Below, piece after piece: positions 21,493-44,378 of a stretch of DNA of 64,000 bases (position 1 is its first letter; every line of letters starts with the position of its first letter). Under the pieces are notes generated by a model. The model was not told the DNA's origin. It made no database searches and saw nothing but the letters and a program-made list of their open reading frames with translations. The position numbers and the translations under genes are program-made. The stretch comes from Mycoplasmatota bacterium (GTDB taxonomy: Bacteria > Bacillota_I > Bacilli_A > RF39 > UBA660). The DNA lies in the NCBI GenBank assembly GCA_022771205.1, contig JALFCF010000001.1:62001-126000 (forward strand), read 5' to 3'.

Positions 21493-21521
21493 TTGTCAAT
21501 TAAAAAAAAACAAGATACAAT
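21493..21521 (+). promoter_or_regulatory. Sigma-A-type promoter of the TasA/SipW-like cluster
   Basis: TTGTCA at 21493-21498, 17-nt spacer containing an A9 tract, TACAAT at 21516-21521. It predicts a leader of about 60 bases before the first gene of the cluster. Confidence 0.75.
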
Positions 21522-21589
21522 AAATATGACATAGTAGGAAAGGGAACATAGTGATGTACTAGAAAATAAAAAACAAGTGGTGATAAAAA

Positions 21590-22294
21590 ATGGCAATTAA
21601 AACAGTAAATATAGAAGCTGAACGAGTCTATAAGAAAAAACTTTTTTCTAGACTGGTAAAAATAGCATTTTTACTATTAATTATTTTTGTATCCATTGTT
21701 TATTTATTTTTGTATATCGTCTACGACGGTGGAAGATTTACTGTTACTTTGGATAGAAATTTATCAAATAGAAAAAATATATTTTTATCTGAAGATGGAA
21801 AAGTAAAGTCGAAGACAAGACAGCTATCAGCAGACACCATAGATTATATGGATAACATTTCAATAAAATGGCTTCCAGCAGATATTGATAAAGAAGCAAC
21901 AGGTGCTCACAATGGAGATAACTATATTGCTTATACATTCTATGTCGTTAATGATGGAGAAGAGAAAGTTCATTATTGGTATGAAGTTGATGTGGATGAC
22001 ACAGTAAAAAACGTGGATGAAGCAATTAGAATTATGATATACCAAAATGGCAAGCCTACAGTCTATGCAAAGAAAAATAAAACAACTAAGAAAAAAGAAC
22101 TAGGTACAAAGAAATTTGTATCAAAAGATATTGCGGTACTAGAACAAAGAAAAAATATGAAGCCTGGTACCAAAGATCGCTATACCATAGTTATATGGAT
22201 AGAAGGTGATGATCCAGAATGCAAAAACGACTTATTAGGCGGAGAGATAAAAATGCACATGGACATAACCGAAGAACATATTGCACAAAGATAA
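21590..22294 (+). CDS. TasA/camelysin-like membrane-anchored beta-sandwich protein
   Basis: 234 residues. Basic N-terminus, one long hydrophobic segment (residues about 23-46), then an extracellular domain. The domain reads like the TasA/CalY fold: AYTFYVVNDGEEKVHYWYEVDVDD in the middle, and YTIVIWIEGDDPECKNDLLGGEIKMHMDI near the end, a typical final-strand motif of SipW-dependent proteins. No clear A-x-A cleavage site follows the hydrophobic segment, so it may stay anchored and act as a fibre base or nucleator (inference). First gene of the cluster, 16 bases before the next start. Confidence 0.7.
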   Translation: MAIKTVNIEAERVYKKKLFSRLVKIAFLLLIIFVSIVYLFLYIVYDGGRFTVTLDRNLSNRKNIFLSEDGKVKSKTRQLSADTIDYMDNISIKWLPADIDKEATGAHNGDNYIAYTFYVVNDGEEKVHYWYEVDVDDTVKNVDEAIRIMIYQNGKPTVYAKKNKTTKKKELGTKKFVSKDIAVLEQRKNMKPGTKDRYTIVIWIEGDDPECKNDLLGGEIKMHMDITEEHIAQR

Positions 22295-22310
22295 ATAAGG
22301 AGTGAGAAAA

Positions 22311-23348
22311 ATGAAAAAAGAAAACAAAAAGAAAAAAAGAAAAATATTGTTATCATTAATCATGATTTTGTTTGTAGGAGTCATTTTAACAGCATCAACT
22401 TATACATGGTTCACTGCTAATAAAACTGTTACAGTTGATTCATTAGATGTTAATGTATCTACTTCTACAGGTTTACAAATTTCAACAGATGCGATTAATT
22501 GGAAAACTATCGTTACAAAAGTTGATATTTTAAATGCAAAGACTACAGGTTATAATGCCGCTGTAAATCAAATACCAGCTGGTCAAACAAACCCAGTATC
22601 AACAGCTGGAGGAGTTGATTCTGGAACAGGATATATGAACATGTTCCGTGGATTATTATCAGATGATTCAGGATTAGGAAACTTAAAACTAACCGCTGCT
22701 AAATCAACTGAAAAAGATGGAACTGAAGGAGATTTTATTGCTTTCGACTTATTTTTTAATACAAATGAAGCACAAGATATTTATCTAACATCTGGTTCTA
22801 ATGTTATTGGTGGAAATTCTGAAGGTGGCGGAACTGATACATCTATTCAAAATGCTGCTCGTATAGCTTTTCTACCACAAGGAACAAACCCAGAAGCAAG
22901 TAATTCATCAGCTAGTCAAGCTTTAAAAGCAACAGACGCTACAGGATTAAGAATTTGGGAACCAAATGCAGATACACATACTGCTAATGGTGTAAATAAT
23001 GCTCAATTAAACTATGGTAAGAGTGGTCTAACTCCAGGCGAAGGTAATGCACCAGTAGAATACTATGGAGTTAAAGCTGTATTTGGTACTGAAAATGCAC
23101 AAGATGTAAATTCTCAAAATCCAACTTACTTTACAAAAATAGAGGCAGGAACTCAAGGATTATTTACAACAAACAAATCAGGAATTCCAACAACTGCATA
23201 TCAACAAGTATTCCACTTAGACAAAGGTGTTACTAAGATTAGAATTTATATGTGGGTTGAAGGACAAGATGTTGATTGTGAAGATTATGCATCAGGTGGA
23301 GATTTAACATATAACTTACAATTTAGTTCATTATCAAAACAAGCATAA
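22311..23348 (+). CDS. TasA-like secreted protein, candidate major fibre subunit
   Basis: 345 residues from ATG 22311; AAGGAGTGA at 22297-22304 is one of the strongest ribosome binding sites in the window. The Lys/Arg-rich N-terminus and hydrophobic segment end in the SipW-type motif ASTYTWFTANKTVTVDSLDV. The ectodomain contains FIAFDLFFNT and ends IRIYMWVEGQDVDCEDYASGGDLTYNLQFS, the TasA/camelysin closing strands. Composition is rich in Asn, Ser, Thr and Gly. The strong site and a partial terminator just after suggest it is the most abundant product (inference). It is probably processed by the SipW-type peptidase encoded two genes on. Confidence 0.8.
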   Translation: MKKENKKKKRKILLSLIMILFVGVILTASTYTWFTANKTVTVDSLDVNVSTSTGLQISTDAINWKTIVTKVDILNAKTTGYNAAVNQIPAGQTNPVSTAGGVDSGTGYMNMFRGLLSDDSGLGNLKLTAAKSTEKDGTEGDFIAFDLFFNTNEAQDIYLTSGSNVIGGNSEGGGTDTSIQNAARIAFLPQGTNPEASNSSASQALKATDATGLRIWEPNADTHTANGVNNAQLNYGKSGLTPGEGNAPVEYYGVKAVFGTENAQDVNSQNPTYFTKIEAGTQGLFTTNKSGIPTTAYQQVFHLDKGVTKIRIYMWVEGQDVDCEDYASGGDLTYNLQFSSLSKQA

Positions 23349-23385
23349 TTATGATCAATAAGTTGGTCATTTAACAAAACAAAAC

Positions 23386-23410
23386 AGGCCTTCAATGAAG
23401 GCCTTTTGTT
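23386..23410 (+). terminator. Hairpin after candidate major subunit gene (possible leaky terminator)
   Basis: Eight-bp perfect GC-containing stem AGGCCTTC/GAAGGCCT with loop AAT, followed by only four T and then GTT. It could attenuate transcription into downstream genes and so raise the ratio of the major subunit. Confidence 0.7.
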
Positions 23411-23425
23411 ATAATAGGAGGGTTT

Positions 23426-23527
23426 ATGGAACAAGCACAAGAACTACTAAAATTATATTTGCAAATCGAAAAGCATATTCGTTATCTAGAAGAAAATATT
23501 ATAAGTGAGGAAGAAACAAATGACTAG
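23426..23527 (+). CDS. 33-residue acidic/helical small protein
   Basis: A short ORF with an excellent site (TAGGAGG five bases before ATG) encodes 33 residues, with one amphipathic helix (ELLKLYLQIEKHIRYLEENI) and an acidic end. It overlaps the next gene by eight bases, so it may be a leader that couples translation or a genuine small protein. The position right after a hairpin also allows a regulatory role. No homolog is recognised. Confidence 0.55.
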   Translation: MEQAQELLKLYLQIEKHIRYLEENIISEEETND

Positions 23528-25175
23528 GGAAGTACAAGATAAAATAAAAAAAGAAATAGAAGTTAACGAAAATCATATTGATAATTTTCCCCTAGAAACA
23601 GAAACAGGAACAAAAAAATTAAAAGAAAAGTTTCACAAGAAAGCAGTGGAAGAACGAAATGCTTATATAAAAAAAGAAATACCAAAATTCAAAGATTATC
23701 AAAGAGAAACCTATCAACAATTAGATAATTATGTAAAATCAGTATTTCCAATAGATAAAACACAAGAATACGAAGATACAAGTAAAAAAATAGAAGAAAT
23801 TTTTAACATAATTCCATATGTAGATGATAAGATAGCTCTGGAAATAAAATTAGGATTTGCTCATATATTTTATGAATTATCAGAAAGAATAGAAGCGTCA
23901 CTAACTGTAATTAATCAAAGTATAAAATCATTTATCAATATTATGAAAAGTGCTAATATTGAGTTAACTGCTGAGAACTTTAATTATAGCCCATTCGTAA
24001 ATGATTATATGAAGTCTTTTTTAGTAAATAGCGATAAAGAAAATTTTGAAGAGATCATGCAAACAACTTTTAAAGAAATTTATTGGGAATGCCCAGAACT
24101 AATTATGCACATCAAAAGGAACTTGATTATGATTTTTAAAAATAATTATCAAGGATTAAAATCATACTGTGATAAAATAACAATTGAAAAATTACAGGAA
24201 AAAGGATTGTCCAAGGAAAATGCTTTAAATACTTATCAGCAAGAACTACTATCTTTACAAGATAAAATTGATCAAGATGAATTTTTGAATCTTCAAATGT
24301 TCTTAGGTAAAAAGAGAAATGTCGATGATTATACAGAGGGAGCTCCTCTAAGAAGTAAGAGCTTTAATCAATTAGTGATTGGAGGATCATATGCAGAACT
24401 AAGAGATGAGCAAAAGAAAGTATTTGACATCGAAAGTATTAATTTAGGAAGACATTTAGAAGTGTTAAAAGAATACTATAATTATGAAAGTATAATTAAG
24501 GATTTAGTTACAAGATTCAAGAAAAAAGAAGAATCTAAAACAAAGTATGAAGCAAAGAAAAAAGAAGTTGATACAGAAGAAAAAGTTCGCGAAAAACTAT
24601 ATAAAGAATATCTTAGAGCAAATGGGATTGGATTTTTAGCAAAGAGAAATGATAATAAGATATCAGAAATAAAAGTTAAAATAAAAGACCAAATAAATAA
24701 GCTTTCTAATTTATACAAAGAACTAGAAGAGTTAGAAATTGATATTAATGTTGGTAAATATTTAACAGAAGGTAGTAGTGTTTATGATGTTTTAACAACA
24801 AGCTTAAGCTCCTATATATACATTGAAAATGTTTTAGTAGAAAAATTCCAAGATATAGATGTAGATTTTAATTTATCAAATTATGTTAGTAGATACTTAA
24901 AATTTATATATAATCCAAATGCTGATTTCCTACACAAAATAACAGCTTTGTCAGATTATGATATATCTGAAGTAATATCAGAAAAATATGCTTTACTTGG
25001 TATAAATGTAGAAAAAGAAGAAATTAATCAAGACAGTATAGATGGTACAATTTCTTCAGTCAAAGTTACGACATTAGTAAATAATATAAAAAAATCAAAT
25101 ATGACAATTGACCAAATGAAACTAATATGTGATATCAATAAGATTGATTACACTATCGAAGATGAAATTCTATAA
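23520..25175 (+). CDS. Large cytoplasmic coiled-coil protein of the fibre cluster
   Basis: 551 residues from ATG 23520; a GTG at 23505 is in frame but overlaps the GAGG ribosome binding site region. There is no signal peptide or membrane helix. Charged, mostly helical, with a strongly coiled-coil stretch at about residues 320-410 (KKKEESKTKYEAKKKEVDTEEKVREKLYKEYL). I do not recognise a domain. Its position between the candidate major subunit and the signal peptidase suggests a cytoplasmic assembly or targeting factor (inference). Confidence 0.7.
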   Translation: MTREVQDKIKKEIEVNENHIDNFPLETETGTKKLKEKFHKKAVEERNAYIKKEIPKFKDYQRETYQQLDNYVKSVFPIDKTQEYEDTSKKIEEIFNIIPYVDDKIALEIKLGFAHIFYELSERIEASLTVINQSIKSFINIMKSANIELTAENFNYSPFVNDYMKSFLVNSDKENFEEIMQTTFKEIYWECPELIMHIKRNLIMIFKNNYQGLKSYCDKITIEKLQEKGLSKENALNTYQQELLSLQDKIDQDEFLNLQMFLGKKRNVDDYTEGAPLRSKSFNQLVIGGSYAELRDEQKKVFDIESINLGRHLEVLKEYYNYESIIKDLVTRFKKKEESKTKYEAKKKEVDTEEKVREKLYKEYLRANGIGFLAKRNDNKISEIKVKIKDQINKLSNLYKELEELEIDINVGKYLTEGSSVYDVLTTSLSSYIYIENVLVEKFQDIDVDFNLSNYVSRYLKFIYNPNADFLHKITALSDYDISEVISEKYALLGINVEKEEINQDSIDGTISSVKVTTLVNNIKKSNMTIDQMKLICDINKIDYTIEDEIL

Positions 25176-25267: not shown

Positions 25268-26524
25268 ATGAGTGCAGCGAAAAATATATTAAAATCAATT
25301 GGATACTTATTCATTGGTATGCTTGTTGCCTTATGTGTATACACATTCATTATGACAGATATTTTAAAGAAAGATTATGCAAATGTGTTTGGATATACAT
25401 ATTTTGTAGTTGCAACAGGATCTATGTCTGGAACGATTGAAGTTAATGATGTAGTAATAGTAAAGTTGGGTAATGAAGCAGAAGTTGGAGATATTATTAC
25501 TTACAAGACAGAAGATGGTGCTTTTATTACACATCGTGTTGTAAAAGAAATTGGTAGTCAATTAATTACTCAAGGTGATGTAAATAATACGGAAGATGAA
25601 CCTATTAGTAAAGACGATATGGTTGGAACCGTAGAAATGGTTATTTCTCCAAGCTTCGTATTAAAATTAATTGCAGTAATATTGATAATATTCATTTTAT
25701 TAGCTTTCTTGAATTTCGATAAAATCTTCAAAAGATTTATATTTGCAGATTCTACAACTTCTAAAAAAACAACTCAAGGAACTGTACCAGAAGAACTTTT
25801 TTCAACAACACCAACCAAAAAAGAAGAAAAATCAACTGGAAATACAGTCAATATACCAATCAGTGAAGTACTTCAAATACAAAAAGATCAAGAACTTGCT
25901 GAAGTAGAAGATGAAATAGAAGTTTTAGAAGTAGAAGATATTATTGATATTGATGATAATAACATTGTAAGAAAAGAAAAAAATAGTGCTAAAGAAAGAG
26001 AAAAAGAACTATTAGAGCAAGTATTAAATTTATTAAGAATAAAAAATGATACATTAACAATTACTAAGATGAATAAAAAATGGTTAACCAAATATCAGTA
26101 TGTTTATAAACTAGCGCAAATTTTATCTATGGGAGACACAAAAGAATTAGAAGACACAATCATGCATCCTACATTTAAAGAAATCTACGATTATGATTTA
26201 GAACGTGCTGGCTTATACGAAAATTTAAGAAATAAGATTTATGATATGCCAATTTACGTATTTTTAAGAATTTTAACTTTTGCCATTTTATATAATGATC
26301 CAACTTTCTTTGATGGAGTATATAAAATATTAAAATATAAAGTTCAAATTGATAAAGAAAACCATTTTAAAGTTTTAAAGAAAAATGATACTTATGCAAA
26401 AAAACAAATAAAGTCTTTAATAACATTTATGCAAAAGATATCAATAAAATTTGATAATAAAAAAGTTTTTGAATTAGATAGAATAGAACGTTATGTAAAA
26501 CTTAAAAACTATGTAAATCATTAA
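25268..26524 (+). CDS. sipW: SipW-type signal peptidase I with long cytoplasmic C-terminal domain
   Basis: 418 residues. Residues 1-155 are a signal peptidase of the ER/SipW type: N-terminal membrane helix, VATGSM with nucleophile Ser52, FITHRVV with His89 in place of the bacterial Lys, and acidic residues in GDVNNTEDEP (Asp104/Asp110). A second membrane helix follows (about 129-150). Residues about 165-418 are unusual: an acidic linker, then a helical domain I do not recognise (LTKYQYVYKLAQILSMGD, MPIYVFLRILTFAILYNDP). Topology puts that domain in the cytoplasm. It probably cleaves the TasA-like proteins encoded around it; the tail may couple cleavage to a cytoplasmic assembly factor (inference). 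Confidence 0.88.
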   Translation: MSAAKNILKSIGYLFIGMLVALCVYTFIMTDILKKDYANVFGYTYFVVATGSMSGTIEVNDVVIVKLGNEAEVGDIITYKTEDGAFITHRVVKEIGSQLITQGDVNNTEDEPISKDDMVGTVEMVISPSFVLKLIAVILIIFILLAFLNFDKIFKRFIFADSTTSKKTTQGTVPEELFSTTPTKKEEKSTGNTVNIPISEVLQIQKDQELAEVEDEIEVLEVEDIIDIDDNNIVRKEKNSAKEREKELLEQVLNLLRIKNDTLTITKMNKKWLTKYQYVYKLAQILSMGDTKELEDTIMHPTFKEIYDYDLERAGLYENLRNKIYDMPIYVFLRILTFAILYNDPTFFDGVYKILKYKVQIDKENHFKVLKKNDTYAKKQIKSLITFMQKISIKFDNKKVFELDRIERYVKLKNYVNH

Positions 26525-26539: not shown

Positions 26540-29500
26540 GTGAAGAAGCTAGTAGTAAGAAAAACAGCAATATTAAAAATCACTTGTGCTTTTCTTGTGT
26601 TAATTGCCTCTTTCATGATTATTAACTTATTCACTGCAACAACGACTTTAAGTAACATAGAATCAGCATGGGATGGAGTAGAAATAGCTACTTCTTTTTC
26701 TGGTGGTAATGGAACGAAAGATAACCCTTACCAAATTTCAAAAGGAAGTGAGTTGGCATATTTAAAACAAGTCGTTGAAAATAATGAAATATCTGATTTA
26801 AAAGATAAATACTTTATATTAACAACAGATATTGATTTAGGAGGAAATAATTGGCAAGGTATAGGAACTGTAATAAATGATGAAATAAAACCGTTTACAG
26901 GACATTTAGATGGTCAAGGTTACAGTATTAAAAATTTTAGAATAGAAACACCGACAGTAATCAATGATACAGACTATTATGCCTTTTTTAATCTTATATC
27001 TAATGCTGAGATTAAAAACATAAATTTTTATAATATAACAATAAAAACAAATAACACTAATAATCCATCAAATATTGGGTTAGTTGCTGGATCAATAACA
27101 GGAAAATCAAATATTAATAATATTGCTGTCCAAGAAGCAACATTAGATTTATCTAAAACATTTGGTAATCAAGATAATAAAATTGGAGGTCTTTTTGCTG
27201 AAATAGATGAAGAAGTTACGATTGAAAATATATATAACCAAATTAATATAATAGATATCAATGGTAACACATTTGGTAATGTATTTGGAATATTAAGAGG
27301 AAAAGCCAATAATATCATAGTACAACCAACATATACTAACTTCTTATCAATTAATATTTCATATGCTGAAGAAATAACTAAAACAGGAAAGTTAAATAAT
27401 AGTTACAAATTAACAAGTGACAATAATAATATATATATAGTGGATAATCACGAAATAACAATAGATTCATTATTAATCAATTTAAATAAATCTATTGAAG
27501 AAAAATATAAATGGAACATAGACTCCCTACGATTAAGAATTAGTCGAGTTGAAGATTTAGAAATGGCAAAAGACGATTCTAAAGTATCTGTTCCAGCTCT
27601 ATTTAGCTTTGGAACAAGTATAGCTATTCCATTACACGATACAGGAATAGAAGGAAGTACAGTATATATCAATGATTTAGATAGTGATTATAATTATTAT
27701 ATAGGATTAAATTATACTGAATCCTCAACAGGAACTTTACCAACAGGAGCAAATCAAAATAAATATAATGATACAAATCTAGTAAAAGTATATATGAAAT
27801 ATAGTGGAACTGATATTTCTGATTCAACATTAACTGGATATATTAGCTTAGAAGAACAACAAAGTGACCTTGTATATTACAAATATTATCCTGTAGAAAA
27901 TGGTTATGTAAATATTGAGTTAATTGATAACCCATATGCTGATAGACCAGATGATAAGGTTTTTAATGGTTGGATAACAGATTATACAAGTGCTCAAATT
28001 AGTTATGACGATGATACATACACAAGATATGTACAAATACCAGTAACATATTCTGATGGAATGCCAAATACAATTAATATTACAATGTACGCATCATGGA
28101 TTAGTTCTACAACCGTAAATGCTACTAGTTCGAATAGCTGGGATAGTGTGTTTGGTGGTTTAAAAGATGCAGGTATGGACTCAATCAGAAGCATTACATA
28201 TGAATATGAAGATATGAGTAAGTACTACACAAAAGAAAATATTGCAAGAGATTATTATCCTGATGGTGCAGTTGATTCAAGAGGACGAGATATCAGTGGT
28301 AATTATTGTAGTCAATGGTCTTTCTTCGGTGGCTGTGATTTTTACATGCCTAGTGTTCCAGAATATGATCCGTCAAAAGACTATTATAGGTTTACTGGAA
28401 CAACAATGACTTCTTATACCCCACAACCAGGAGAAGAGAAAATAGAAATTATGATACCAGAAGGTTCAAGTGCAGCTGGATTATATGAACAAGTAAGTAT
28501 AAGTAGATATCAAAGTATTGCAGGTTATTACGATGAAACAGGAAACTATATAGAAAGTGGTACATGTAATAGTAGCAGTTGTACATATTATAAATTGCAA
28601 CAGTTCTACGATGACAATGGAAATTTAAATGTTGTAACACAAGATAGAGCTTTATACTATTTAGTAACTAGAGACACTAATATAGTAGTGCTTAAAGCCG
28701 ATAAATCAGGAGGTATGTATACTGAAAAACCATTTACTTTAACAGGAATAAACAATGGAGAAGATTATAGTGATAATCGATTAAATATTAGTAGTGATGA
28801 AGCTTCTTTAGATGCAGATGCCAGAATAGAATGGCTTGAAATTTATAGTAATAGAAGAAAGTCAACAAATGCAAGTACAACACCAGGATCAAGTCAAACA
28901 TCTGGTGGAATTTATGCAAATTGGAACAATTTAAAAATTGGTAGAGGTATTAAAGAAGTATCAAACCAAGTAAATGCCACAACAGTAGTAGAAGGAAGTG
29001 GAAACTCTACTGGAAGTGCTAGTAATCTAACAAGATATAAACTGATTATAGAATCTGGTATCTATAATACAACTTCAGCAACCAATGGAGAGAGAAGCAG
29101 ACGTATATATGTAGATGGAACTGTAGTGTATGGAAATGATTATGATAGAATATTAAATAATAATGATAACTTACAGATTGTATTTTGTGCATCAGGAAGT
29201 TGGGGGGATAATGTATATTCTTCAACTCAAACAGGTATAGCACTACATACTATTGTAAAAAGTGGATCATTTGGAACAAATAAATATGATTATTCAACAG
29301 GAATTTACATCGGAGGTCGTCAAGGTGGTACCCATTATGCAGCAAGAGATGCTATTATTGAGGGCGGATATATATATAACTTAATTGGTGGACCACTAAC
29401 AGCAACCAGCAGAAGAAATATCAATGATACTTTTATTAATATAAAAGGTGGAACTATTGATATGGTAATTGGTGGAGCCGGTGCATCTACTACATATGGA

Positions 29501-32500
29501 AATAGAATTATCAATTTTACAGACGGAACAGTAAATTATGGAGTCTTTGGTGGAAGTAACGGAACTACAGGATCAGATAGTGGTAGTTACCAAGGAATCT
29601 TGAGTGGTTCGACATTAATATATGTAGGAGGAAGTGCTCAAGTAGGAAATGATAGTTTGATTACAAATGGTAATACATTATATGGAGTTGAATCAGGATC
29701 AGTATTTGGTGCTGGAAACGGAAACTCAACATCTTCAAGAATCGGTACAGTAGATAATACTAACATCATCGTTGATAAAAATGCCGTAGTTAAGCAAAAT
29801 GTCTATGGTGGTGGTAATTATGGAACTACCGGAATTAATATGAGCAGTGGATCAACCACTAATACCAAGATTGAAGTATTAGGAGGAACTATTGAAGGTG
29901 CTGTGTACGGAGGAGGTAACAATAACGGTTCAGGAACAAGTAATGTAGACTCTAATGTGTCTATTGAAATGCTTGAAGGAACCATAGGAAATATCTATGG
30001 TGGTTCAAGAACAAAGGGAACTGTATACGGAAGTACTACTCTTAATATCCTATCTGGAACAATCAAAGATTCAGTTTATGGTGGTGGAGAAGGTGGTTAC
30101 ACTAGTAGTAGTGAGCCAGGTACATTTATTCGAGATAATGTATATCTAACAATAGGAAATGCAGTAGTAGGACCAACAATAGAAGGCTCCGTCTATGGAG
30201 GAAGTGCTTATGGTTCTGTAAATGGTACGACATCTAGTGGTAGTGCCAATAATAATATTACTCAAGTAACGATAGAAAATGGAATTATAAAAAACTCTGT
30301 ATTTGGTGGAGGAAAAGGAAGTACAAGATATACTCCAAAAGTATATGGAAACATAACTGTAACTGTTAATAATGGAAATATTGGTAATGTCTATGGAGGA
30401 AATGATGCTGCTGGAAGCCCAAGTAATAAAGATGTTGTTTATTTAAATAATGGAACAATTGGTAATGCTTATGGTGGTGGAAATAAAACCGGACAAACTA
30501 AAACAGAAATATATCTTCAAGGAGCCCAAGTAACAAACAAATTATTTGGAGGTTCAAATGAATCAGGAACTGTTAACACAACAAATGTTTATATAACATC
30601 AGGAACAGCTGCTAATGTATATGGAGGAAACAACTTAGGTGGAAAAACAACAACTGATAACATCCAAATTACTGGAGGTACAATAACTGGTGATGTATAC
30701 GGTGGTGGAAGTCAAGCAGACACCGAGAATACAAACTTATATTTAGGAATTGCCAAAATAAATAATGTTTATGGTGGTGGAGAAAGAGCTAGCGCAACCA
30801 CTACAAATTTACAGATAGAAAATAGTGATATTGGAAATGTCTACGGTGGTTCAAATATTAGTGGAATAGTAAATACTGCAACCATTAATATGACAGATGG
30901 AACAGTTGGTACTATCTATGGTGGAAATAATTCTGGAGGAACAACGAATACTTCTGAAATTACAATAAATAACGGGGTTATAGATGCCATATACGGTGGT
31001 GGAAATAAAGCAACTTCAACATATACAACTATTAATATTAATAATGCCAATGTTAATAATATTTATGGTGGAGGAAATCAAGCCGGCCTTGATACGGCAA
31101 CTATAACTATTGGCCAAGGAGATATTGGCAACATTTATGGTGGTTCAAATCAATCTGGTAATATTGTCAAAACAACAATAAATATTTCAAATAATCCTTT
31201 GATATCTGTTGATAATATTTATGGAGGAAATAATAAAGGTGGATCAACGAATGACTCAACTGTAGATGTAAGAGGTGGAACAATTGGTAACATTTATGGT
31301 GGAGGAAATGAAGCTGTTGTAGATATGCCAAATGTTCAAGTTCAAAATGCCACTGTAAATAATATTTATGGTGGAGGTAACATGGCTGGTATCAATGGAG
31401 ATACCAAAGTTACTATAAAAAATAGTAATATTAATACTAATATTTATGGTGGAGGTAACTACGGAACTGTTGCTGGTAACACCAAAGTAGTAATTACTTC
31501 AAGTACAATTTTAGGAAGTGCTTATGGTGGTGGTAATGGATCGAGCGCCATTGTAGATAGAAATACAGAAATCACAGTTGAAGGTAATACAGTAATTGGA
31601 TCTACAACTTCAAAAGCACCACATCAAGGATGCCTATTTGGTGGTGGAAATGCTGCTGCTACAGGAACAGAAGAAAAGAATAATTCTATTGCTACAGTAA
31701 ATGTAGTAGGTGCCAAAGTTTATGGCAATGTTTATGGAGGAGCTAATACCTCCGTAGTATATGGAAAAACAGATACAAACATTGGAATGAATGCAGTAAA
31801 AGATAATACTCTAGAAGAAACTTCTATCGATATTGGTGGAACTGTGTTTGGTGGAGGAGAAGCTAATGCTGCTGGAGATGAAAACTATGACTTCTCATTC
31901 ATCTCTGTAACGGGAGCAATTGATATTGATATTGACGGTAAAGGATATATAGATAATAATCATGAGTTTATTATTTCAGGATCAATCTTTGGTTCTGGAA
32001 ATGCATCATCTTCAAGTGGTACAAGTAATATCTATATTGCCAATCTTGGAACAAGAGAAAAACCAAGTGAAAATATCTCTATTCAAAGAGCTAATAAAGT
32101 AGTAATAGATAATGCAGTAATGGAATTAGAAGGAACAACCGATAGAACAAATGAATACTCTGATATTGAATATTCATTTAACAGAATTGATGAATTAAAT
32201 ATAAAAAATAACACAATGTTACTATTACAAAGAAATGCCAACTTACTACGAAGCTTAAAAAGTACAGTAGATATAGACGGAAAAGAAGTAAAAGCTGCTG
32301 TAATTATCGATGATGATACAAAAACAGTAACTAAAAATGTCGATAACCGTATTTATATGTTGGCTAATAGAAACTTAAATGTAACAACCAATGAAGCTGC
32401 AACAGAGTACGGTGAAATAAGTGGAATGACATTCTTTGGAATGTATCAAAAATATGGAAATGGTTCTTTCTCATATGGTTTATATGATGATGGAGTCAAC

Positions 32501-36013: not shown

Positions 36014-36643
36014 ATGGCTAGAAGACTAAAAATATTAAGTAAACTGAAAAAAGAAAATATTACATACTATGAAGAGAAAAAAAGGTTATTAATTGTAGTA
36101 GTAGGGATGTTTTTATTAATCGTACTAGCCTTAAAACTATTTCAAGTGGCCTATGCATCTTATGAATCAGAAGCTAAGTTAAATGCTAATATTAATAAAG
36201 CTATATATATTTTAGAAGAGGGCGGAATGGATTTTAATATTGATTTAAACAAAATTGAACCATCTGATAAACCATATGTCTATAAATTCAGTATATCTAA
36301 TTATAAAGGAAGTAAACATAGTCAAGTTGATATAGAATATAAAATAGATTTAAAAACAACAACCAATCTACCATTAACGTATGAATTATATCGAAATGAA
36401 AATTATGATGATCCCAATAGTACGGATTTATTTAATGAAGTTAAGACTGTACAAGATATTGATGGTGCTTGGTATAACAGTTTAGAGGAAACGGAAAAAC
36501 ATTTATTTCCATATATTGAAGATAAAACAGATATTTATACGTTAGTGATACATTTTCCAAAAGAGTATAAAACTAATACCGAATATGCAGAAAATATAGA
36601 AAATATAGAGGTGGCTATCAAATCTAACCAAGTAACAGAGTAG
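36014..36643 (+). CDS. TasA-like secreted protein (minor subunit)
   Basis: 209 residues from ATG 36014, with AAGGTG ten bases upstream (at 36002-36007). The long basic N-terminal tail (about 24 residues) precedes the membrane segment, then QVAYASYESEAKLNANINKAIYIL, a SipW-type cleavage region. The ectodomain contains VYKFSISNYKGSKHSQVDIEYKIDL and ends with IYTLVIHFPKEY...IEVAIKSNQ. No Cys. It starts ten bases after the previous gene, forming a three-gene run of related exported proteins. Confidence 0.7.
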   Translation: MARRLKILSKLKKENITYYEEKKRLLIVVVGMFLLIVLALKLFQVAYASYESEAKLNANINKAIYILEEGGMDFNIDLNKIEPSDKPYVYKFSISNYKGSKHSQVDIEYKIDLKTTTNLPLTYELYRNENYDDPNSTDLFNEVKTVQDIDGAWYNSLEETEKHLFPYIEDKTDIYTLVIHFPKEYKTNTEYAENIENIEVAIKSNQVTE

Positions 36644-36653: not shown

Positions 36654-37586
36654 ATGGATTTTATAAGAGATCATAAAAAAATTAGTATTTGTATCTTAGC
36701 AATAGCAGTTCTAATTCTCTTATTTGGAACGACATTTGCTCGCTACATCTATAATATTGTTCACAATCATATCCTAGAAAGTAATGAATTTTATTTCAAT
36801 AGTTCAGTACTAGCAATGAATGGAAAACAATATAAAATTAACAATTGGGATGGAGTAAATAATTATATTTTAACAGTAGATGTTAATAATAAAAAAAATA
36901 CCTTAAAATCTACCAAAAGTGATATTACATACAATACAGAAGTGACTTGTCCTGATACCGTATCTTGTACGCTTAGTAAAACAAGTGGAGTAATTTATAA
37001 ACAAGCAGGAACAGATAGTTACCGAATTACTGTAACTCCAAAAAGTGAGTTTCACGAAGGTGATGAAATAGAAGTGACAACAAAGGCTATCTCAACATCT
37101 CCATATGAAAAAGAGTTATCAGCAACTTATACAATTGGTATTGAAACCAGTAAGTTTTCTTATAATATTGAAGATAATGTTGGAGATAAGTACTTTACAC
37201 TGAACTTAACCAATACAGCAACTTATTATGAAGTAGAAACAGCTTTTGCTTCATATGAAGTAGGAGATAGATTAACCCCAGATGAATACCAAGCTCTAAC
37301 AGAAACAGAAAAAGAAAAATGCTACTCAGCAAAAGTAACAATATCTTTTAAACCAAATAAAATATTTCTAGACATGACTAATAAAAAATATCTTCATAGA
37401 ATTAAAAATAGTGAAAACACCGAGAATGTAAATGGGTATCCATATATCAATGAATTTAGTTTCAAAATGGACGCATCATCCAGTGAAAAAATAATGTTTT
37501 ATAAGAAAGATCCAAAACAAAACTACACATATCCTATTATAAATGAAAACTCTATTATCACTGTAAATGTAAAAACTGCAGATTAA
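36654..37586 (+). CDS. TasA-like secreted protein, longer variant
   Basis: 310 residues. Short N-terminus, hydrophobic core, then LFGTTFARYIYNIVHNHILES, a SipW-type signal followed by the mature start. The ectodomain seems to hold two beta-sandwich parts: an Ig-like region with two Cys (VTCPDTVSCTLS, about residues 97-106) and a second part after residue 165. GAGGTG lies upstream. It closes the three-gene run; a separate promoter follows. Confidence 0.68.
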   Translation: MDFIRDHKKISICILAIAVLILLFGTTFARYIYNIVHNHILESNEFYFNSSVLAMNGKQYKINNWDGVNNYILTVDVNNKKNTLKSTKSDITYNTEVTCPDTVSCTLSKTSGVIYKQAGTDSYRITVTPKSEFHEGDEIEVTTKAISTSPYEKELSATYTIGIETSKFSYNIEDNVGDKYFTLNLTNTATYYEVETAFASYEVGDRLTPDEYQALTETEKEKCYSAKVTISFKPNKIFLDMTNKKYLHRIKNSENTENVNGYPYINEFSFKMDASSSEKIMFYKKDPKQNYTYPIINENSIITVNVKTAD

Positions 37587-37647: not shown

Positions 37648-38712
37648 ATGACAACTAATTTAATTACAAGATATCTTGAATATAAAAAGAAACATTTAAC
37701 CTCCTATACACTTTCTTTATTTACAGATAAGGAGTATAAAAATTATGAAATAGAATGTTTAAAAAAATATATAGACAACTATGTCGAAGTATTTTATCAT
37801 CAAAGATTTGAAACCTTAGGAAATGGAGTTAAACCAGATCAAAATACCATTGAAATAGAACAAGAAGGTATGCGATTAGAATTACTAGATGCACTACAAG
37901 CTAGAGAAATTATTGAAAGTAATAGTAGCTACACAAGAAAAAAAGAAATAATAGAAGAGACTAAAGAGTATGCTAAAGCAGTAATTACTTTCGATCAAAA
38001 AAAAGTAGTTGAAGAAAAGATAGAAGAAGTAATAACTGACATTACAATAAATGTTAGTAAAAAGTTCCCAGTATTACAGAATGCTATTACAACATGGATA
38101 AAGAAATATAAAGAAGAACAAAAAATAATAAAAAAACTGTTAGAAGAAAATAAAACCTTTGTATTAAACCAAGCCCCATATCAAGAAAATTTATGGGAGC
38201 TTACACTTTTGACAAATATAAAGCAACTAAATACATATAAACATAGTTTAGTAAAAAGAGTAGAAGTAGATCAAAAAGTAGAAGTAGAAAAACTAAAAGT
38301 AATAGCTATGATAGTAAACCAAATAATTTTAGGACAAATAATAAGAAAAGAAAGTATAGGTAACTATATTATTCCTATCAAAGAAGAAATATGGCAAGAA
38401 AAAACAGATATAGAAGAAGTCCTAAATCTATTGAATGACAAAATTTTAAAAGAACACATATACTTAGGAGTTAGTTACAATATATTAAGTAATAGTAAAA
38501 AACTTCAAGAAAAAAAACAAGAAGGATATCGATTCGCTTGCTACCAAGATTTTACACATATTTTAGATATTCCTACTAAAATTAGTACAATTGATACTTC
38601 AAATTTATTTAGCTATTTAGTGGTAACAGGTTGTAAAGCTAAAGATGTTAGTACAATAGAAAAAGAAGAACCTAGTATCATCAAACAGATATTTTTTAGA
38701 AAGGATAGATAG
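37648..38712 (+). CDS. Uncharacterised cytoplasmic helical protein next to the AAA+ ATPase
   Basis: 354 residues, AAGGAGGG ribosome binding site. No signal peptide or membrane segment. Charged and helix-rich, with long Glu/Lys stretches (KKEIIEETKEYAKAVITFDQKKVVEEKIEEV). The family is not recognised. It is five bases from the AAA+ ATPase gene and shares its promoter, so it is probably part of the same complex (inference). Its charged, helical character resembles the coiled-coil protein at 23520-25175, but I cannot show homology by eye. Confidence 0.65.
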   Translation: MTTNLITRYLEYKKKHLTSYTLSLFTDKEYKNYEIECLKKYIDNYVEVFYHQRFETLGNGVKPDQNTIEIEQEGMRLELLDALQAREIIESNSSYTRKKEIIEETKEYAKAVITFDQKKVVEEKIEEVITDITINVSKKFPVLQNAITTWIKKYKEEQKIIKKLLEENKTFVLNQAPYQENLWELTLLTNIKQLNTYKHSLVKRVEVDQKVEVEKLKVIAMIVNQIILGQIIRKESIGNYIIPIKEEIWQEKTDIEEVLNLLNDKILKEHIYLGVSYNILSNSKKLQEKKQEGYRFACYQDFTHILDIPTKISTIDTSNLFSYLVVTGCKAKDVSTIEKEEPSIIKQIFFRKDR

Positions 38713-38717: not shown

Positions 38718-40262
38718 ATGGATACATTTATCAGATTTTTATATGAATTTATGTCTGTATTTTTTAATGGGCTATTGACTATTTTTAAAGGAATAGCATC
38801 AGGATTTATACAGATGTTTAATTTTAGTGAATATTTATATATCATACAATTTTATAAAAACGATTTTGAAGTATCAGAATGGATTTTAGTTATTATTGCT
38901 ATCGTAGTGTTAGCAATATTACTAGGATTAATCATTGTTTTATTATGGTTAGTTATTAGAAAATATATTCGTTTTAGAAAAACTTTAGTAGAACAAGAAT
39001 CTATGCTAAATGAAATAGGAGAATTAAATAAGAAAGTTGCAAGCTTAGTAAAAGAAAAAGAAGATATTTTAGCTATGAAGGTATCACAGTTAGGATTAAA
39101 GCCAGATGAAGCAAATATAATTAGTGAAGAAGAAAACCCTACAAAAGAAGGAGAGGATCCTACACTTGATGAAGATGAGAGCAAATATCGTTTCTCAAAA
39201 TTACATGCAATTGACTTACAATATAGAGACTATAAAGTTCAAGTTTATAATAATACTTTTACATTAGAAGAATTAGTAGAAGAATTTAGAAACTTTGCTG
39301 CATCTAAATTAAAGTTATATTACACAACTAAAATGATTAGACTTTTTATATCAGCTTTATCAGCAACAAAACTTGTAATTTTACAAGGTATTTCTGGTAC
39401 TGGTAAAACATCTCTTGCTTATGCTTGGGGTAAATTTATAAAAAGAGATGCTATTATCGCATCTGTACAACCGTCATGGAGAGACCGTACCGAGTTATTT
39501 GGATATTTCAATGAATTTACAAAAAAATTCAATGAAACAGATGTGTTAAAAGGAATGTATATTGCGGGATACACTGATGATGTATATGTAACTGTACTAG
39601 ATGAAATGAACATAGCGCGTGTAGAATACTATTTTGCCGAAATGTTATCTATTCTAGAAATGCCATCTCGTGATGAGTGGGTAATTGAATTAGTTCCTAG
39701 TAGTTGGGATACCGACCCCAAAAAGTTAAAGAATGGAAAACTACAAATTCCAGGAAACATGTGGTACATTGGTACAATCAATAACGATGATTCAACATTC
39801 GCTGTAACAGATAAAGTATACGACCGTGCTATGCCAATCGATATTAATGACAAAGGACAACCATTTACTCCAACAGAAACAGAAGCTATGAATATCAATA
39901 GTTCATATTTAGAAGGACTATTTGCAGAAGCTAAACAAAAACATCCACTATCAGAAGAAATGGAACAAAAAATTAATGAAATGGATGACTATGTAATTAA
40001 ACATTTCCGTATTGCTTTTGGTAACCGTATCGTTAAACAAATGAGAGATTTTGTTGCAACTTATGTAGAATGTGGAGGAACAGAAGTAGATGGAGTAGAT
40101 TATTATATAGCAAGAAAAATACTACGTAAGTTTGAACAATTAAACTTAGCTTATATTAGAGATGAAATTGATGGCTTTGTAGAATTTTTAAATAAAGAAT
40201 TTGGTAAAGATAATTTTACAGAATGTAAAGATTACTTATTAAGACTTAAGAAACTAGTATAA
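38718..40262 (+). CDS. Membrane-tethered McrB-like AAA+ ATPase
   Basis: 514 residues. Two N-terminal hydrophobic helices (about 15-30 and 50-75), then a coiled coil (LVEQESMLNEIGELNKKVASLVKEKEDIL). The AAA+ module has Walker A GISGTGKTS (from residue 224), Walker B VTVLDEMNIARVEYYFAEMLSILE (Asp295/Glu296) and the sensor-like GTINNDDSTFAVTDKVYDRAM. The DEMN-x-ARVEYYF signature is that of the McrB branch. McrB normally works with McrC nuclease in restriction, but here the ATPase is membrane-anchored inside a secretion/fibre gene group. A role as motor or remodeller in export or assembly is inferred. Confidence 0.85.
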   Translation: MDTFIRFLYEFMSVFFNGLLTIFKGIASGFIQMFNFSEYLYIIQFYKNDFEVSEWILVIIAIVVLAILLGLIIVLLWLVIRKYIRFRKTLVEQESMLNEIGELNKKVASLVKEKEDILAMKVSQLGLKPDEANIISEEENPTKEGEDPTLDEDESKYRFSKLHAIDLQYRDYKVQVYNNTFTLEELVEEFRNFAASKLKLYYTTKMIRLFISALSATKLVILQGISGTGKTSLAYAWGKFIKRDAIIASVQPSWRDRTELFGYFNEFTKKFNETDVLKGMYIAGYTDDVYVTVLDEMNIARVEYYFAEMLSILEMPSRDEWVIELVPSSWDTDPKKLKNGKLQIPGNMWYIGTINNDDSTFAVTDKVYDRAMPIDINDKGQPFTPTETEAMNINSSYLEGLFAEAKQKHPLSEEMEQKINEMDDYVIKHFRIAFGNRIVKQMRDFVATYVECGGTEVDGVDYYIARKILRKFEQLNLAYIRDEIDGFVEFLNKEFGKDNFTECKDYLLRLKKLV

Positions 40263-40280: not shown

Positions 40281-41408
40281 ATGGAAAAAGAAGAACAAGA
40301 AGTATATGATGAATCAATAAAACAAGATACTTTTTTAGAAAATATGAATTCTATACTTTCCGTAAAAACAGATTACGAAAGAAGAGAATATGATTATGAA
40401 TGGATTGATATTATTGATGAAACCCTTCCATACATTGATAATATTCTAAGAAATCCTAAGAGATTTATCGTTAATGAAGAAGAAGTTGTACAAGTAGAAA
40501 AATCTAAAAAAGTAACTGTAGAAAGTATTATTCATTTAACACAACATACCAACTATATTCAAAAAATAGAAGATAATGGTGATGTAAAACCATCTAAAAT
40601 CTTAAATATTAATAAAGAGGAAAGCCTAGATACCTATGAAAATAGATTTGTTTATACATTAATTAATAATACTAGAACTTTTTTTGAAAAAAGGAAAAAG
40701 GAAACTGGAGACTTTTCTTACTTTAAGGATAAAAAAGAGTTAAAGTTTGAAGCTAATACTATTATTGATACAGAAGAAGTAGATGTATCATTAAATATTT
40801 CTTCACGTAATGAAGCTAAATTAGAAGGAAAAACAACATCAAGTGAAGAATCTATTGCTGATAGATTAAAAAGAATAAAAGTTCAACTAGATGGATTTAC
40901 TATGTCAGAATTAATGCAGACATTATCAAAACTACATGTTCCAGCTGTTCGTTCTCCAATCAGAAAAACAAATGTTATTTTAAAAAATCCAAACTTCCAA
41001 AAAGCAGAAGCACTATGGAATTATATTCAAGCATATGAAGAAAAAGACAGAAATGAAAATGAACATAAAGATTATTATGATGAAGGAAAATTAAAAGAAT
41101 CATATAATCAAGCATTTTTATCTTTATACATAGCAAATAAGATGTTAAATCATGAAACTACTCCAGCAACAGAAGAAAAACTACTAAGTCAAACTATGTC
41201 TCGCTTAATTGAAAACATTTTAGATAGTAATTACGAAATAACAGAGCAAGAAATAAAAGATTTATTCAATAAACAACTAAAATTAATTAAAACAGCAAAT
41301 GAAGAAAAGAAACGTAAAATTAAAAAAATCTTATTGGATAAATTAGAAGAGGAAAAACATAATTTTATAAAACAATGGGCTATACTAGAGGAGAATGACA
41401 TATGTTAA
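40281..41408 (+). CDS. DUF2357/McrC-like partner of the AAA+ ATPase, no nuclease motif seen
   Basis: 375 residues, 18 bases after the ATPase gene. The middle contains SLDTYENRFVYTLINNTRTFFEKR, which resembles the T-x-E-N-R-F core of DUF2357 proteins that partner McrB-type ATPases. It is followed by AKLEGKTTSSEESIADRLKRI. DUF2357/McrC proteins usually have a C-terminal PD-(D/E)xK nuclease; the C-terminus here is a helical, Lys/Glu-rich segment with no D...ExK pattern that I can see. It may be an adaptor for the ATPase. The family assignment is moderate, and absence of nuclease is by eye only. Confidence 0.6.
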   Translation: MEKEEQEVYDESIKQDTFLENMNSILSVKTDYERREYDYEWIDIIDETLPYIDNILRNPKRFIVNEEEVVQVEKSKKVTVESIIHLTQHTNYIQKIEDNGDVKPSKILNINKEESLDTYENRFVYTLINNTRTFFEKRKKETGDFSYFKDKKELKFEANTIIDTEEVDVSLNISSRNEAKLEGKTTSSEESIADRLKRIKVQLDGFTMSELMQTLSKLHVPAVRSPIRKTNVILKNPNFQKAEALWNYIQAYEEKDRNENEHKDYYDEGKLKESYNQAFLSLYIANKMLNHETTPATEEKLLSQTMSRLIENILDSNYEITEQEIKDLFNKQLKLIKTANEEKKRKIKKILLDKLEEEKHNFIKQWAILEENDIC

Positions 41409-42016
41409 GAAAAATACTAGATAGTAAATATTTTCAAATTCCATATAAGATTATCAAAGCAATAATCTTTATAGTACTACTTTTATATGTGGTATTTACT
41501 ATTATTCAACGAGTATCTGGAAATCAGAGTATATTTGGATATAGATTGTTCGCTGTTGCAACAGGATCAATGGTACCAGACTATAATATTAATGATGTAC
41601 TAGCAATTAAAGAAGTAAATCATAATGAAATAAAAGTTGGAGACGATATTACTTATTTAGGAAAAAAACAAGATGTAAGTGGCAAAATTGTAACCCATAG
41701 AATTATTGATATAGAAGAAAAAAATGGCAAAAAGACCTATTTAACAAAAGGTATTAATAATGATGTTGAAGATCCTACAATAGGTGATAATCAAATATAT
41801 GGAAAAGTAGTAGGAAAAGTACCAGTTGTAACGCAAATAAATCATATCGTAAAAAATCAATATGGATTTTTCTTTCTAATTTTTCTACCACTAGTAATAG
41901 TTATCTTTTTAGAAATAGCAGATACTGTAACAGAAATGAAACAGGATAAAATAGAAAAAGATAAGAAAGAAGATGAAGTCAATGAAAATACTGAAGATGA
42001 AGAAGAAATTATCTAA
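41402..42016 (+). CDS. sipW: SipW-type signal peptidase I, second active copy
   Basis: 204 residues, overlapping the previous gene by seven bases (GAGGAGAATGAC before ATG). N-terminal helix (about 16-36), FAVATGSMVPDY with Ser56, VTHRIID with His99, NNDVEDP with Asp124, then a C-terminal helix and an acidic cytoplasmic tail. All three catalytic residues of the Ser-His-Asp type are in place. It lacks the long extra domain of the copy at 25268. Probably processes the TasA-like protein encoded by the overlapping next gene and its relatives. Confidence 0.9.
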   Translation: MLRKILDSKYFQIPYKIIKAIIFIVLLLYVVFTIIQRVSGNQSIFGYRLFAVATGSMVPDYNINDVLAIKEVNHNEIKVGDDITYLGKKQDVSGKIVTHRIIDIEEKNGKKTYLTKGINNDVEDPTIGDNQIYGKVVGKVPVVTQINHIVKNQYGFFFLIFLPLVIVIFLEIADTVTEMKQDKIEKDKKEDEVNENTEDEEEII

Positions 42017-42746
42017 TGAGTTAGACGAAACAATTCAGAAAAAAAGAAAATCACGAAAAAAAGTTATTGTTCGTAGTGTATTATTAGTTGCTTTTTTATT
42101 AGCAATAAACACTTTTGCTTGGTTCACATATATTTCAAAAGCTGGTGTTACTTTGAGTGGAAGTGTAGTTAACTGGGATGTAACATTTTTAGAAGAAACA
42201 AATGTGATTAAAGAGATTAATGTAGATATAAAGGATATGAAACCAGGTATGGTTCCATATGAAAAAGAAATAGTGATCAATAATGGTGGAGATATTGCTG
42301 CTAAATTAAACTATAGAGTAGAGTCACTTACTTTATTAGGACAAGAATTATTACAAGGAAATCAAAATGCAACATTAGAAAGCATAAAAAAGGACTATCC
42401 ATTTAAATTACTATTAGATGCTTCATCTTCTGTCATACCAGTTCGTGGTTCAGCTAATGTAAAAATAGGATTAACCTGGGATTTTGAAGAAAGTGAATAT
42501 TATAAGTTAAACAACTTATATTCATTTGACTCTGGAGTATATTACTATAATCTAATAGGAAGTACATATCAAGTAGATAATACAGTGACAGAAGAAAACT
42601 TTTCTGAAAAAGTAGCTAATGGTTTGTATTTAGAAAAAGATGATGCAGATAGTTATTGGGGTTATGCTTGTGGAAAATATGAAACTGAAACTGGAAAATC
42701 ATGTTTGCATATGAGATTAGTATTAAACGTAACACAAATAAATTAA
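41973..42746 (+). CDS. TasA-like secreted protein coupled to SipW
   Basis: 257 residues if the ATG at 41973 is used; ATGs at 41982 and 41997 are also in frame and none has a strong ribosome binding site, so translation is probably coupled to the overlapping sipW. Basic N-terminus, hydrophobic segment, then LAINTFAWFTYISKAGVTLSGSV, a classic SipW-dependent motif. The ectodomain has MVPYEKEIVINNGGDIAAKLNYRVE and ANVKIGLTWDFEES, the alternating-strand pattern of the camelysin/TasA fold. It ends the plus-strand cluster before a bidirectional terminator. Confidence 0.78.
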   Translation: MKSMKILKMKKKLSNELDETIQKKRKSRKKVIVRSVLLVAFLLAINTFAWFTYISKAGVTLSGSVVNWDVTFLEETNVIKEINVDIKDMKPGMVPYEKEIVINNGGDIAAKLNYRVESLTLLGQELLQGNQNATLESIKKDYPFKLLLDASSSVIPVRGSANVKIGLTWDFEESEYYKLNNLYSFDSGVYYYNLIGSTYQVDNTVTEENFSEKVANGLYLEKDDADSYWGYACGKYETETGKSCLHMRLVLNVTQIN

Positions 42747-42772
42747 AAGAAGGACAAGTCCTTCTTTTTTTA
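42745..42772. terminator. Bidirectional terminator between convergent TasA-like genes
   Basis: Eleven-bp perfect stem AAAAGAAGGAC/GTCCTTCTTTT with two-base loop AA. A-rich on the left and T-rich on the right, it serves both strands. Confidence 0.9.
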
Positions 42773-43372
42773 TTGATTCAATTGTGAGAAATGCAAAGTT
42801 ACAGTCATCAAAGCTTTGCTATCACTATTAACTCCAGCAACCGTATCTGCTTGGTTATCCATAGTACCAGTCTCATCATCCCATTTTAAATATATTTTAA
42901 AAACAGTCTGTTTTGTATTCCTAGAAATTTGTTGAACAATACCTGTATCTGGAACATATTCAACTTTCTTTTCTTCATCCGTAGGATTTATCTCATAAGA
43001 AAGAGTTTTTAAATCACTAATACTAGATTCAGGAGAAACATTAGATAAAATACTACATTCGAATGGAACATCTACTTGGCTAGAATCAACAGTAATGGTA
43101 TAGTAGCCCTCAATGCCAGGAGCAATAACACCTTCTTTATTATATTCAGACTCTGGAAAAAATGCTTCTATTGTTGTAGTTAGTGTTTTTTTATTAGCTA
43201 TATCTTCATTATTAACTTTAATATTCCATTGAGCAATATCAGAAGAAACATTGCCCGAAACAGCTCTACGATATTTAGCATAAGAAGATTGAAATAAATA
43301 TATTAATGAAAAAGACACAACTACTACAAACAATATAATGAATCGAAAGTCTTTCTTTTCACTCGTTTTCAT
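42770..43372 (-). CDS. TasA-like secreted protein on the opposite strand
   Basis: 200 residues. Hydrophobic N-terminal segment then YLFQSSYAKYRRAVSGNVSSDIAQWNIKVNNEDI, a SipW-type signal followed by a first strand that matches the paralog at 35428 (VANWKIKVNN). Further on: GIEGYYTITVDSSQVDVPFECSILSN and VFKIYLKWDDETG, again parallel to that paralog. GTAGGTGTCTT precedes the ATG. It is the only cluster member on the minus strand and so is regulated separately; a relocated copy or an alternative subunit is possible. Confidence 0.72.
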   Translation of the reverse strand: MKTSEKKDFRFIILFVVVVSFSLIYLFQSSYAKYRRAVSGNVSSDIAQWNIKVNNEDIANKKTLTTTIEAFFPESEYNKEGVIAPGIEGYYTITVDSSQVDVPFECSILSNVSPESSISDLKTLSYEINPTDEEKKVEYVPDTGIVQQISRNTKQTVFKIYLKWDDETGTMDNQADTVAGVNSDSKALMTVTLHFSQLNQ

Positions 43373-43512
43373 AAGACACCTACCTTATATTTAGATTCTA
43401 TCATAAATACAAAAAATATTAAATACTAATAAGTGTCAAAATAAAAAACTATGATGAAAAACATTTCCAAAACAAATAAAACTATGATATATTCATAATA
43501 GGATGTGATAAT

Positions 43513-44349
43513 ATGAAAAAAGTTATTTTACTATCAGGAATAGCAGTAATTACTTTATTGCTAACAGGATGTGACGGGAATGTTACTAGAGATTTAAGAC
43601 ATGCAGGATTTTCTCTATCTACAGAAGAATTTAAATGTAGTACACTATTACCAGCTAGTGAAGATAGTAAGCCAACAGATACCATTCTCTATAGTAACGG
43701 ATCATATGCTATTACAGACGACGGAAAGTTATATGAATTATCTTTATCTCAACCATATAGTAATAATGAAAACTGTAAAAAAATAAGTTTCTCTGTAAAA
43801 GTAATAGCTTATATGGATGATAATATATTAAAAGGAGAAGATAACAAATTTTACTATGCTCCAGGAACTACAAGTACACAACCATTAACTAAAGTTACTA
43901 CAAATGATAGTAATTATCAATTATATACTTTATTATTAGGTGGACAACAAGTGAAAAAAGTAATAACAGTGGATTCTAATGCCGGTATTTACTACGCTTT
44001 AGAAGATGATGGAAACGTATATAAATATACTATGACGAGACAAGATTATAATGCTCCATATACTATATCCGAAAAAGTTCCAGTATATAAAAAGTCAGAA
44101 TATGGAGAAATAATTGATTTTAATTATGCTGGAGACAGTTCAGCAACATATATAAAAACAAAAACAAAAATATATCGTATGAAAGCAACCAACGAAGAAG
44201 AATGTACTAAATATGCAGATGTTGCCTGTAAATATAAAATAAAGCTAGATGAAACTTTAACAGAATATAACAACACTAAGAAAATAATATATTATGGACC
44301 AAATCTATTATTAACAGACTATGGAAAACAATTTACAGTAGGAAGTTAA
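43513..44349 (+). CDS. Lipoprotein of unknown function, possible beta-propeller-like repeats
   Basis: 278 residues with a lipoprotein signal ending in LLLTGC (Cys at residue 19). The mature part is beta-rich, with recurring ITDDGKLYEL, LEDDGNVYKYT and IKTKTKIYRM segments, suggesting repeated blades. Four or more Cys after the lipobox. It should sit on the outer face of the membrane. Divergent from the minus-strand TasA-like gene and next to the fibre cluster, so an accessory role there is possible but unproven. Confidence 0.7.
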   Translation: MKKVILLSGIAVITLLLTGCDGNVTRDLRHAGFSLSTEEFKCSTLLPASEDSKPTDTILYSNGSYAITDDGKLYELSLSQPYSNNENCKKISFSVKVIAYMDDNILKGEDNKFYYAPGTTSTQPLTKVTTNDSNYQLYTLLLGGQQVKKVITVDSNAGIYYALEDDGNVYKYTMTRQDYNAPYTISEKVPVYKKSEYGEIIDFNYAGDSSATYIKTKTKIYRMKATNEEECTKYADVACKYKIKLDETLTEYNNTKKIIYYGPNLLLTDYGKQFTVGS

Positions 44350-44352
44350 AAG

Positions 44353-44378
44353 AAGCCTTGAATATCAGGCTTTTTTTT
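44353..44378 (+). terminator. Intrinsic terminator after lipoprotein gene
   Basis: AAGCCT-T-GA pairs with TC-AGGCTT (one bulged T), loop ATA, then eight T. Confidence 0.85.

Follow-up and report, generated by a model that had tools for sequence, protein, structure and literature searches.

A peptidase and a minor subunit resembling a chaperone are thought to suffice for fibres of the TasA type, and GTPases of the McrBC type are known as restriction machines. Here we describe a gene cluster that has relatives of both, found in a window of 64,000 nucleotides (the whole stretch of DNA analysed, C8:62001-126000) from a 1.36-Mb metagenome-assembled genome of a gut member of the Bacilli; the guanine-plus-cytosine content was 28.5%. 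The open reading frames (ORFs) of the cluster, lettered A (21590) to P (43513), lie at the positions given in an earlier reading of the same DNA (hereafter the sequence-only reading) and are listed in Table 1. The closest described systems are those of Bell et al. 2024 (eLife RP94800, PMC11090510), in which McrB-like GTPases with an NxD motif, fused to an FtsB-like domain and accompanied by signal peptidases, were named CoCoPALM; these GTPases, with their membrane/coiled-coil fusions, are treated there in a few sentences and deferred to later work. In a literature search, CoCoPALM in this sense was found only in that paper and its preprint.

The cluster matches CoCoPALM. Its protein K is an NxD McrB-like protein with a membrane helix and an adjoining heptad-like stretch (read from the sequence), its partner L is a DUF2357 protein, and SipW-type signal peptidases are encoded beside them. 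The composition is therefore not wholly undescribed, and the statement of the sequence-only reading that no described system is so composed could not be upheld. On balance, the cluster is somewhat more likely than not to be a CoCoPALM-type envelope system that makes or controls a surface fibre or adhesin.

Scanning bacterial genomes with K yielded 448 relatives, and neighbourhoods were counted for the best 80, picked by K similarity; the denominator for each gene is the number of loci with enough flanking sequence. Beside K, L was present at 79/79 loci, a catalytic SipW-type peptidase at 72/72, and I and J each at 73/73, followed by N (69/72), F (52/57), O (46/51) and H (Table 1). Chance is excluded, since the cluster is conserved in dozens of genomes, and the conserved co-occurrence of McrB-like/DUF2357 genes with sipW that the sequence-only reading had proposed to look for was indeed found. 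The A-B(-C-D-E) module lies upstream in the window and downstream of O elsewhere, yet it is retained with the F-O module. Most loci examined in distant families of the same class had a signal-peptidase gene; the gene order there was A-B(1-3)-SipW-K-L-(N)-SipW-large protein, with A-B-SipW-K-L-SipW immediately adjacent, and this is taken as the ancestral order. At class level, relatives of K were found in 139/395 genomes; among 193 genomes of the order, 34 had both K and A, 17 had K only, 2 had A only and 140 had neither (Fisher test, 9e-23, kinship ignored). A tree of 93 K domains, arbitrarily rooted, fell into two parts, one with the SipW-linked rows (64/93) and 9 unlinked ones, the other with 20 unlinked rows, and the split between them had a support of 90/94. 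In the first K tree, SipW was nearby in 28/28 rows of the window's own clade. The adjacency, the retained A-B module and the co-occurrence of K with A bear out the proposal that the McrB-like/DUF2357 pair belongs to a single system dedicated to surface proteins; the cluster is one system.

D and M are signal peptidases of the SipW/endoplasmic reticulum type, both scoring above the cut-off of TIGR02228, and the catalytic Ser and His are retained in 25/25 homologs of D and 82/82 homologs of M. The two complete SipW-type peptidases of the sequence-only reading are thereby confirmed. F, which it had called degenerate, is also conserved in this state: the Ser/His pair was found in 0/65 homologs, and F is therefore a conserved pseudo-peptidase. 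A second SipW-like pseudo-peptidase, again with both catalytic residues gone, occurs at 50119-50637 of the window and adjoins the exopolysaccharide glycosyltransferase genes PssD/PssE (50706-53259); two further SipW-like genes lie elsewhere in the genome (C7:113907-114413 and C2:134354-134659).

The signals of B, N and O end in A-x-aromatic and are conserved within each family, with WF invariant in the B family and AWF in the N family. An aromatic residue at the P2′ position is reported for TasA (PMC10269814), and these signals are hence what SipW substrates should show. B, present in 1-3 copies in relatives, is the best TasA candidate in the window: the best match in the PDB of its predicted model (mean predicted local distance difference test score, pLDDT, 84.9) was the TasA fibre 8aur, a weak match (E 0.031, probability 0.20, template modelling score 0.18-0.25), and the fourth was an archaeal 0406 filament, also weak. 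A sequence-profile search of the PDB with B, G and N gave no matches, and none of the window proteins, nor any other in the genome, matched PF12389 (camelysin). In one relative (L127), an A-W-F/L type signal marks seven exported proteins of a single locus, and one of the seven exceeds the Pfam camelysin cut-off. A and B have a C-terminal W-EG-D-DC-GG motif in common. The sequence-only reading had regarded six exported proteins and a minus-strand paralog as TasA/camelysin-like; the evidence bears this out for some of them, with B as candidate, but not for A, which lacks a SipW-type signal, nor for I, whose model (pLDDT 91) had no TasA match in the fold search. G and O form one family (hhalign 99.7%), in agreement with the view of the minus-strand gene as a paralog. 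The 2703-residue repeat protein E was also confirmed, with 21 YGG repeats spaced mostly by 24-26 residues; its homologs are encoded upstream of F or downstream of O-A-B, depending on the locus. The lipoprotein P, which had been counted as part of the cluster, is accessory, occurring at 26 loci, and stands outside the core. Sortase pili were considered and rejected: sortases are encoded in the genome, yet no LPxTG-type signal stands at the C-terminus of any exported protein, E included.

K aligned to E. coli McrB (PDB 6hz4) with an E value of 5.3e-5. It has a strong membrane helix at residues 56-74 and RKYIRFRK after it, so that under the positive-inside rule the AAA+ domain would lie in the cytoplasm. 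The N-x-D-D signature (N355-N356-D357-D358) is invariant across 31 homologs, and in distant homologs the NxD region reads, for example, TANKDDS. Since this is the signature of McrB-type GTPases, K is probably a GTPase; of the "membrane-tethered McrB-like ATPase" in the sequence-only reading, the tether and the McrB likeness stand and the label "ATPase" is probably wrong. The DUF2357-like partner was recognised as such in L, where DUF2357 was the sole domain found and no nuclease model matched in the domain search; the C-terminal region of L is poorly conserved and rich in charged residues. J and C matched no family in the family search, and kinship between the two was rejected, none being detectable (hhalign 0.1%). 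Family and defence-model searches recognised neither a nuclease nor a toxin in any of the four proteins K, L, J and C. An active restriction system was rejected because no nuclease was recognised.

Putative cultured carriers are Acholeplasma laidlawii PG-8 (G293), A. palmae J233 (G364) and A. brassicae O502 (G352). The SipW-linked locus of the putative A. laidlawii, at about 1.026-1.037 Mb, comprises two EAL/GGDEF genes, A, two B (VYAWF and LAWF), SipW, K, L and SipW, and ends with two more AWF-signal proteins, the last of which has a carbohydrate-binding module; a second K-L locus lies at about 1.151-1.164 Mb. The proteins of the cluster are not named in the main text of a published study of the vesicle proteome of A. 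laidlawii. Homologs of GGDEF/EAL proteins, which relate to cyclic di-GMP (c-di-GMP), flank 21/32 distant SipW-linked loci, a count without a background rate. None was found in the examined loci of the window's own family; the window genome has one GGDEF gene, outside the cluster. The organism of the window is walled by its gene content, with six transpeptidase matches.

The reading that we favour, with confidence somewhat above even, is a c-di-GMP-linked machine for the assembly of surface fibres, energised from the cytoplasm by a motor step that we infer. Sec would export the pre-subunits B, G, H, N and O, as well as A and I with their membrane helices, after which D and M would cut those subunits that have a SipW-type signal, just ahead of the aromatic residue. 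Mature B-like subunits could then polymerise as in TasA, possibly through donor strands, together with minor subunits, and the giant E may be a cell-bound or tip adhesin. F, being dead, might hold unprocessed or end-capping subunits rather than cleave them. On the inner side of the membrane, in which its helix anchors it, K would form a McrB-like ring activated by L, J being a putative client adaptor. Hydrolysis of GTP, presumably in preference to ATP, would pull on subunit ends embedded in the membrane, extract them or gate them, and would thus time the start, growth or release of a fibre. A stronger version is put forward tentatively, as possible rather than expected: a previously uncharacterised class of appendage machine, whose GTPase ring (K-L-J), derived from McrBC and tethered to the membrane, acts from the cytoplasm to power or gate the assembly of TasA-like fibres that SipW has processed, in walled gut Bacilli as well as in wall-less Acholeplasma. 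If true, this would be a new way of energising or controlling surface fibres, with defence machinery turned to envelope biology, and the putative cultured wall-less carrier A. laidlawii makes this named but unexplored CoCoPALM group testable.

K-L pairs also occur without SipW, in three settings. First, K-L follows a protein of approximately 2,500 residues and a GGDEF/EAL-type protein (L100 and L131); in L131, from the putative A. laidlawii, the giant protein has 12 cadherin-like domains and an EAL-like protein is encoded nearby. Second, K-K-L-K is found with a transglutaminase/AgI-II surface protein (L147). In the tandem K-K-L-K loci L108, L109, L147 and L151, the two K of one genome have near-identical C-terminal domains, which look as if homogenised by gene conversion. 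Third, the window's own family has a J-K-L-X cassette that lacks both SipW and exported subunits (L167, L168, L169, L171, L178 and L179), X being a cytoplasmic protein with no assigned family; rsmH-like and penicillin-binding-like genes, named from their sequences, adjoin it in several cases, and its K forms a separate branch beside the window clade. Both the cadherin-like and the K-K-L-K settings adjoin large surface proteins, and the K-L pair therefore seems to be a module for surface proteins that serves several clients, as opposed to an unrelated neighbour. This shows a module used in several settings, not independence inside the SipW clade. Independent movement of the pair, which the sequence-only reading had named as evidence against a single system, is thus seen in part: the pair is linked to SipW in the SipW clade and is free of it in these three settings.

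Several observations weigh against the fibre-assembly reading. The fibre is predicted here from genes, the model-based match of B to TasA is weak, and I gave none. The substrates would be extracellular and the GTPase cytoplasmic, on opposite sides of a membrane across which we infer the physical link. Similarity of K was the criterion for picking the 80 nearest loci, and the test of K/A co-occurrence ignores phylogeny. PDC-M26A, a candidate model for defence in PADLOC, matches K (2.2e-34), and the J-K-L-X cassettes imply that the role of K-L is not always fibre-dependent.

K-L-J could instead be a general machine for remodelling or quality control of envelope membrane proteins, with the SipW/TasA fibre as one client of several. 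The four settings of K-L agree with this, as do the much higher identity among homologs of K (65-92%) than of J (17-50%) and a genome (G055) with both a SipW-linked and a free K-L copy; we nevertheless hold it to be unlikely, as SipW accompanied every K row of the window's clade in the first tree, and the specialisation of K copies by setting suggests dedicated clients. An anti-phage role, in which McrBC-derived K-L senses phage at the envelope, the fibre serves as sensor or decoy, and J or C acts as the effector that shuts down the cell, appears more doubtful still. This reading stays open because the clade to which K belongs by motif, the NxD McrB clade, includes the CoCoNuT predicted defence systems (PMC11090510) and because of the PADLOC match; plasmids and two phage records also contained distant K-like domains. 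These plasmid and phage matches were partial AAA-domain matches, however, none covering 80% of K, the chromosomal synteny is conserved, and K, L, J and C hold no recognised nuclease or toxin. The neighbours in relatives are c-di-GMP and surface-adhesin genes, not defence genes, and for this reason the fibre or adhesin machine is favoured over defence. That a TasA-type matrix operon and an McrBC-like pair are unrelated neighbours by accident or local hitchhiking is very improbable and largely refuted, even with a SipW/TasA-type locus lacking K (L162) and K-L lacking SipW on record, by the 72/72 linkage in near relatives, the same gene order in distant families and the K tree.

Table 1 Features of the cluster in the window
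Feature	Position	Strand	Assignment	Basis
A	21590..22294	+	Membrane-anchored exported protein, no SipW-type signal	Motif common with B; adjoins B in distant families
B	22302..23348	+	Candidate major TasA-like subunit	SipW-type signal STYTWFT; weak TasA fold match
Hairpin	23386..23404	+	Terminator-like, 3′ of A-B	8-bp stem
C	23505..25175	+	Cytoplasmic protein, no family assigned	Family search
D	25268..26524	+	Catalytic SipW-type signal peptidase, long C-terminal extension	TIGR02228, E 9.5e-17
E	26540..34651	+	2703-residue exported protein, candidate fibre/adhesin	YGG repeats
Hairpin	34656..34680	+	Terminator-like, 3′ of C-D-E	Comparison with shuffles
F	34735..35358	+	SipW-like pseudo-peptidase, Ser and His both lost	NF046067, 4.2e-8
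G	35428..36003	+	Exported subunit, family of O	hhalign with O
H	36005..36643	+	Exported subunit	47/57 loci
I	36654..37586	+	Exported protein, predicted membrane helix and beta-sandwich domains	Model; neighbourhood count
J	37648..38712	+	Cytoplasmic protein, fast-evolving	Neighbourhood count; kept with K-L where SipW is missing
K	38718..40262	+	Membrane helix, coiled coil and McrB-like AAA+ domain	Walker A 224-232; NNDD 355-358
L	40281..41408	+	DUF2357 (McrC N-terminal-like) protein	PF09823, E 8.9e-12; neighbourhood count
M	41402..42016	+	Catalytic SipW-type signal peptidase	TIGR02228, E 1.9e-25
N	41973..42746	+	Exported subunit	SipW-type signal NTFAWF; neighbourhood count
Hairpin	42745..42768		Bidirectional terminator-like, between convergent N and O	Comparison with shuffles
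O	42770..43372	-	Exported subunit, G family	SipW-type signal SYAKY; neighbourhood count
P	43513..44349	+	Lipoprotein	Accessory

Terminator-like sites numbered 3 in the region as compared with 0.9 in shuffles, a count that includes the hairpin 3′ of A-B, and 9 terminator-like hairpins were counted against 1.7 in shuffles, including the one 3′ of C-D-E; a further terminator-like hairpin lies 3′ of P. With hairpins after B, E, the N/O junction and P, above the shuffle numbers, the units A-B, C-D-E, F-to-N, O and P are suggested. Promoter-like matches in 21000-27000 were at chance level (39 vs 38.2), and a promoter-like site at 21493 was discounted because such matches are no commoner there than expected. 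A tRNA-Leu (CAA) gene is located at 21152-21238, between scpB and the cluster, and a transposase with HTH_21 and an rve integrase core at 18145-18966 (-), upstream of scpA/scpB and the cluster.

Compared with known systems, the cluster resembles the BsaA/SipW matrix loci (TIGR04090, e.g. L162) in its SipW-dependent exported matrix proteins; L162 differs in having no K-L-J module within the stretch examined. With the McrBC type IV restriction system of E. coli it shares a DUF2357 activator and an AAA+ domain that can be aligned with McrB (5e-5). It differs from McrBC in that no nuclease was recognised and no DNA-recognition domain was found in it, K is anchored in the membrane, and the motif is NxD instead of NxxD. 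Like the tapA-sipW-tasA/camelysin fibres of B. subtilis, it combines a SipW-type peptidase with exported subunits bearing SipW-type signals, and the weak TasA fold match of B and the camelysin Pfam match in one relative point the same way. It departs from tapA-sipW-tasA in its giant repeat protein, its multiple subunit families and its three SipW proteins, of which two are active and one is dead, and we know of no GTPase/DUF2357/J cytoplasmic module in the Bacillus operons. Relative to the main text of the CoCoPALM report (PMC11090510), the additions made here are a description of the exported subunits and of how they relate to TasA, the conserved dead SipW, the two-module layout, a proposed mechanism and the putative cultured carriers.

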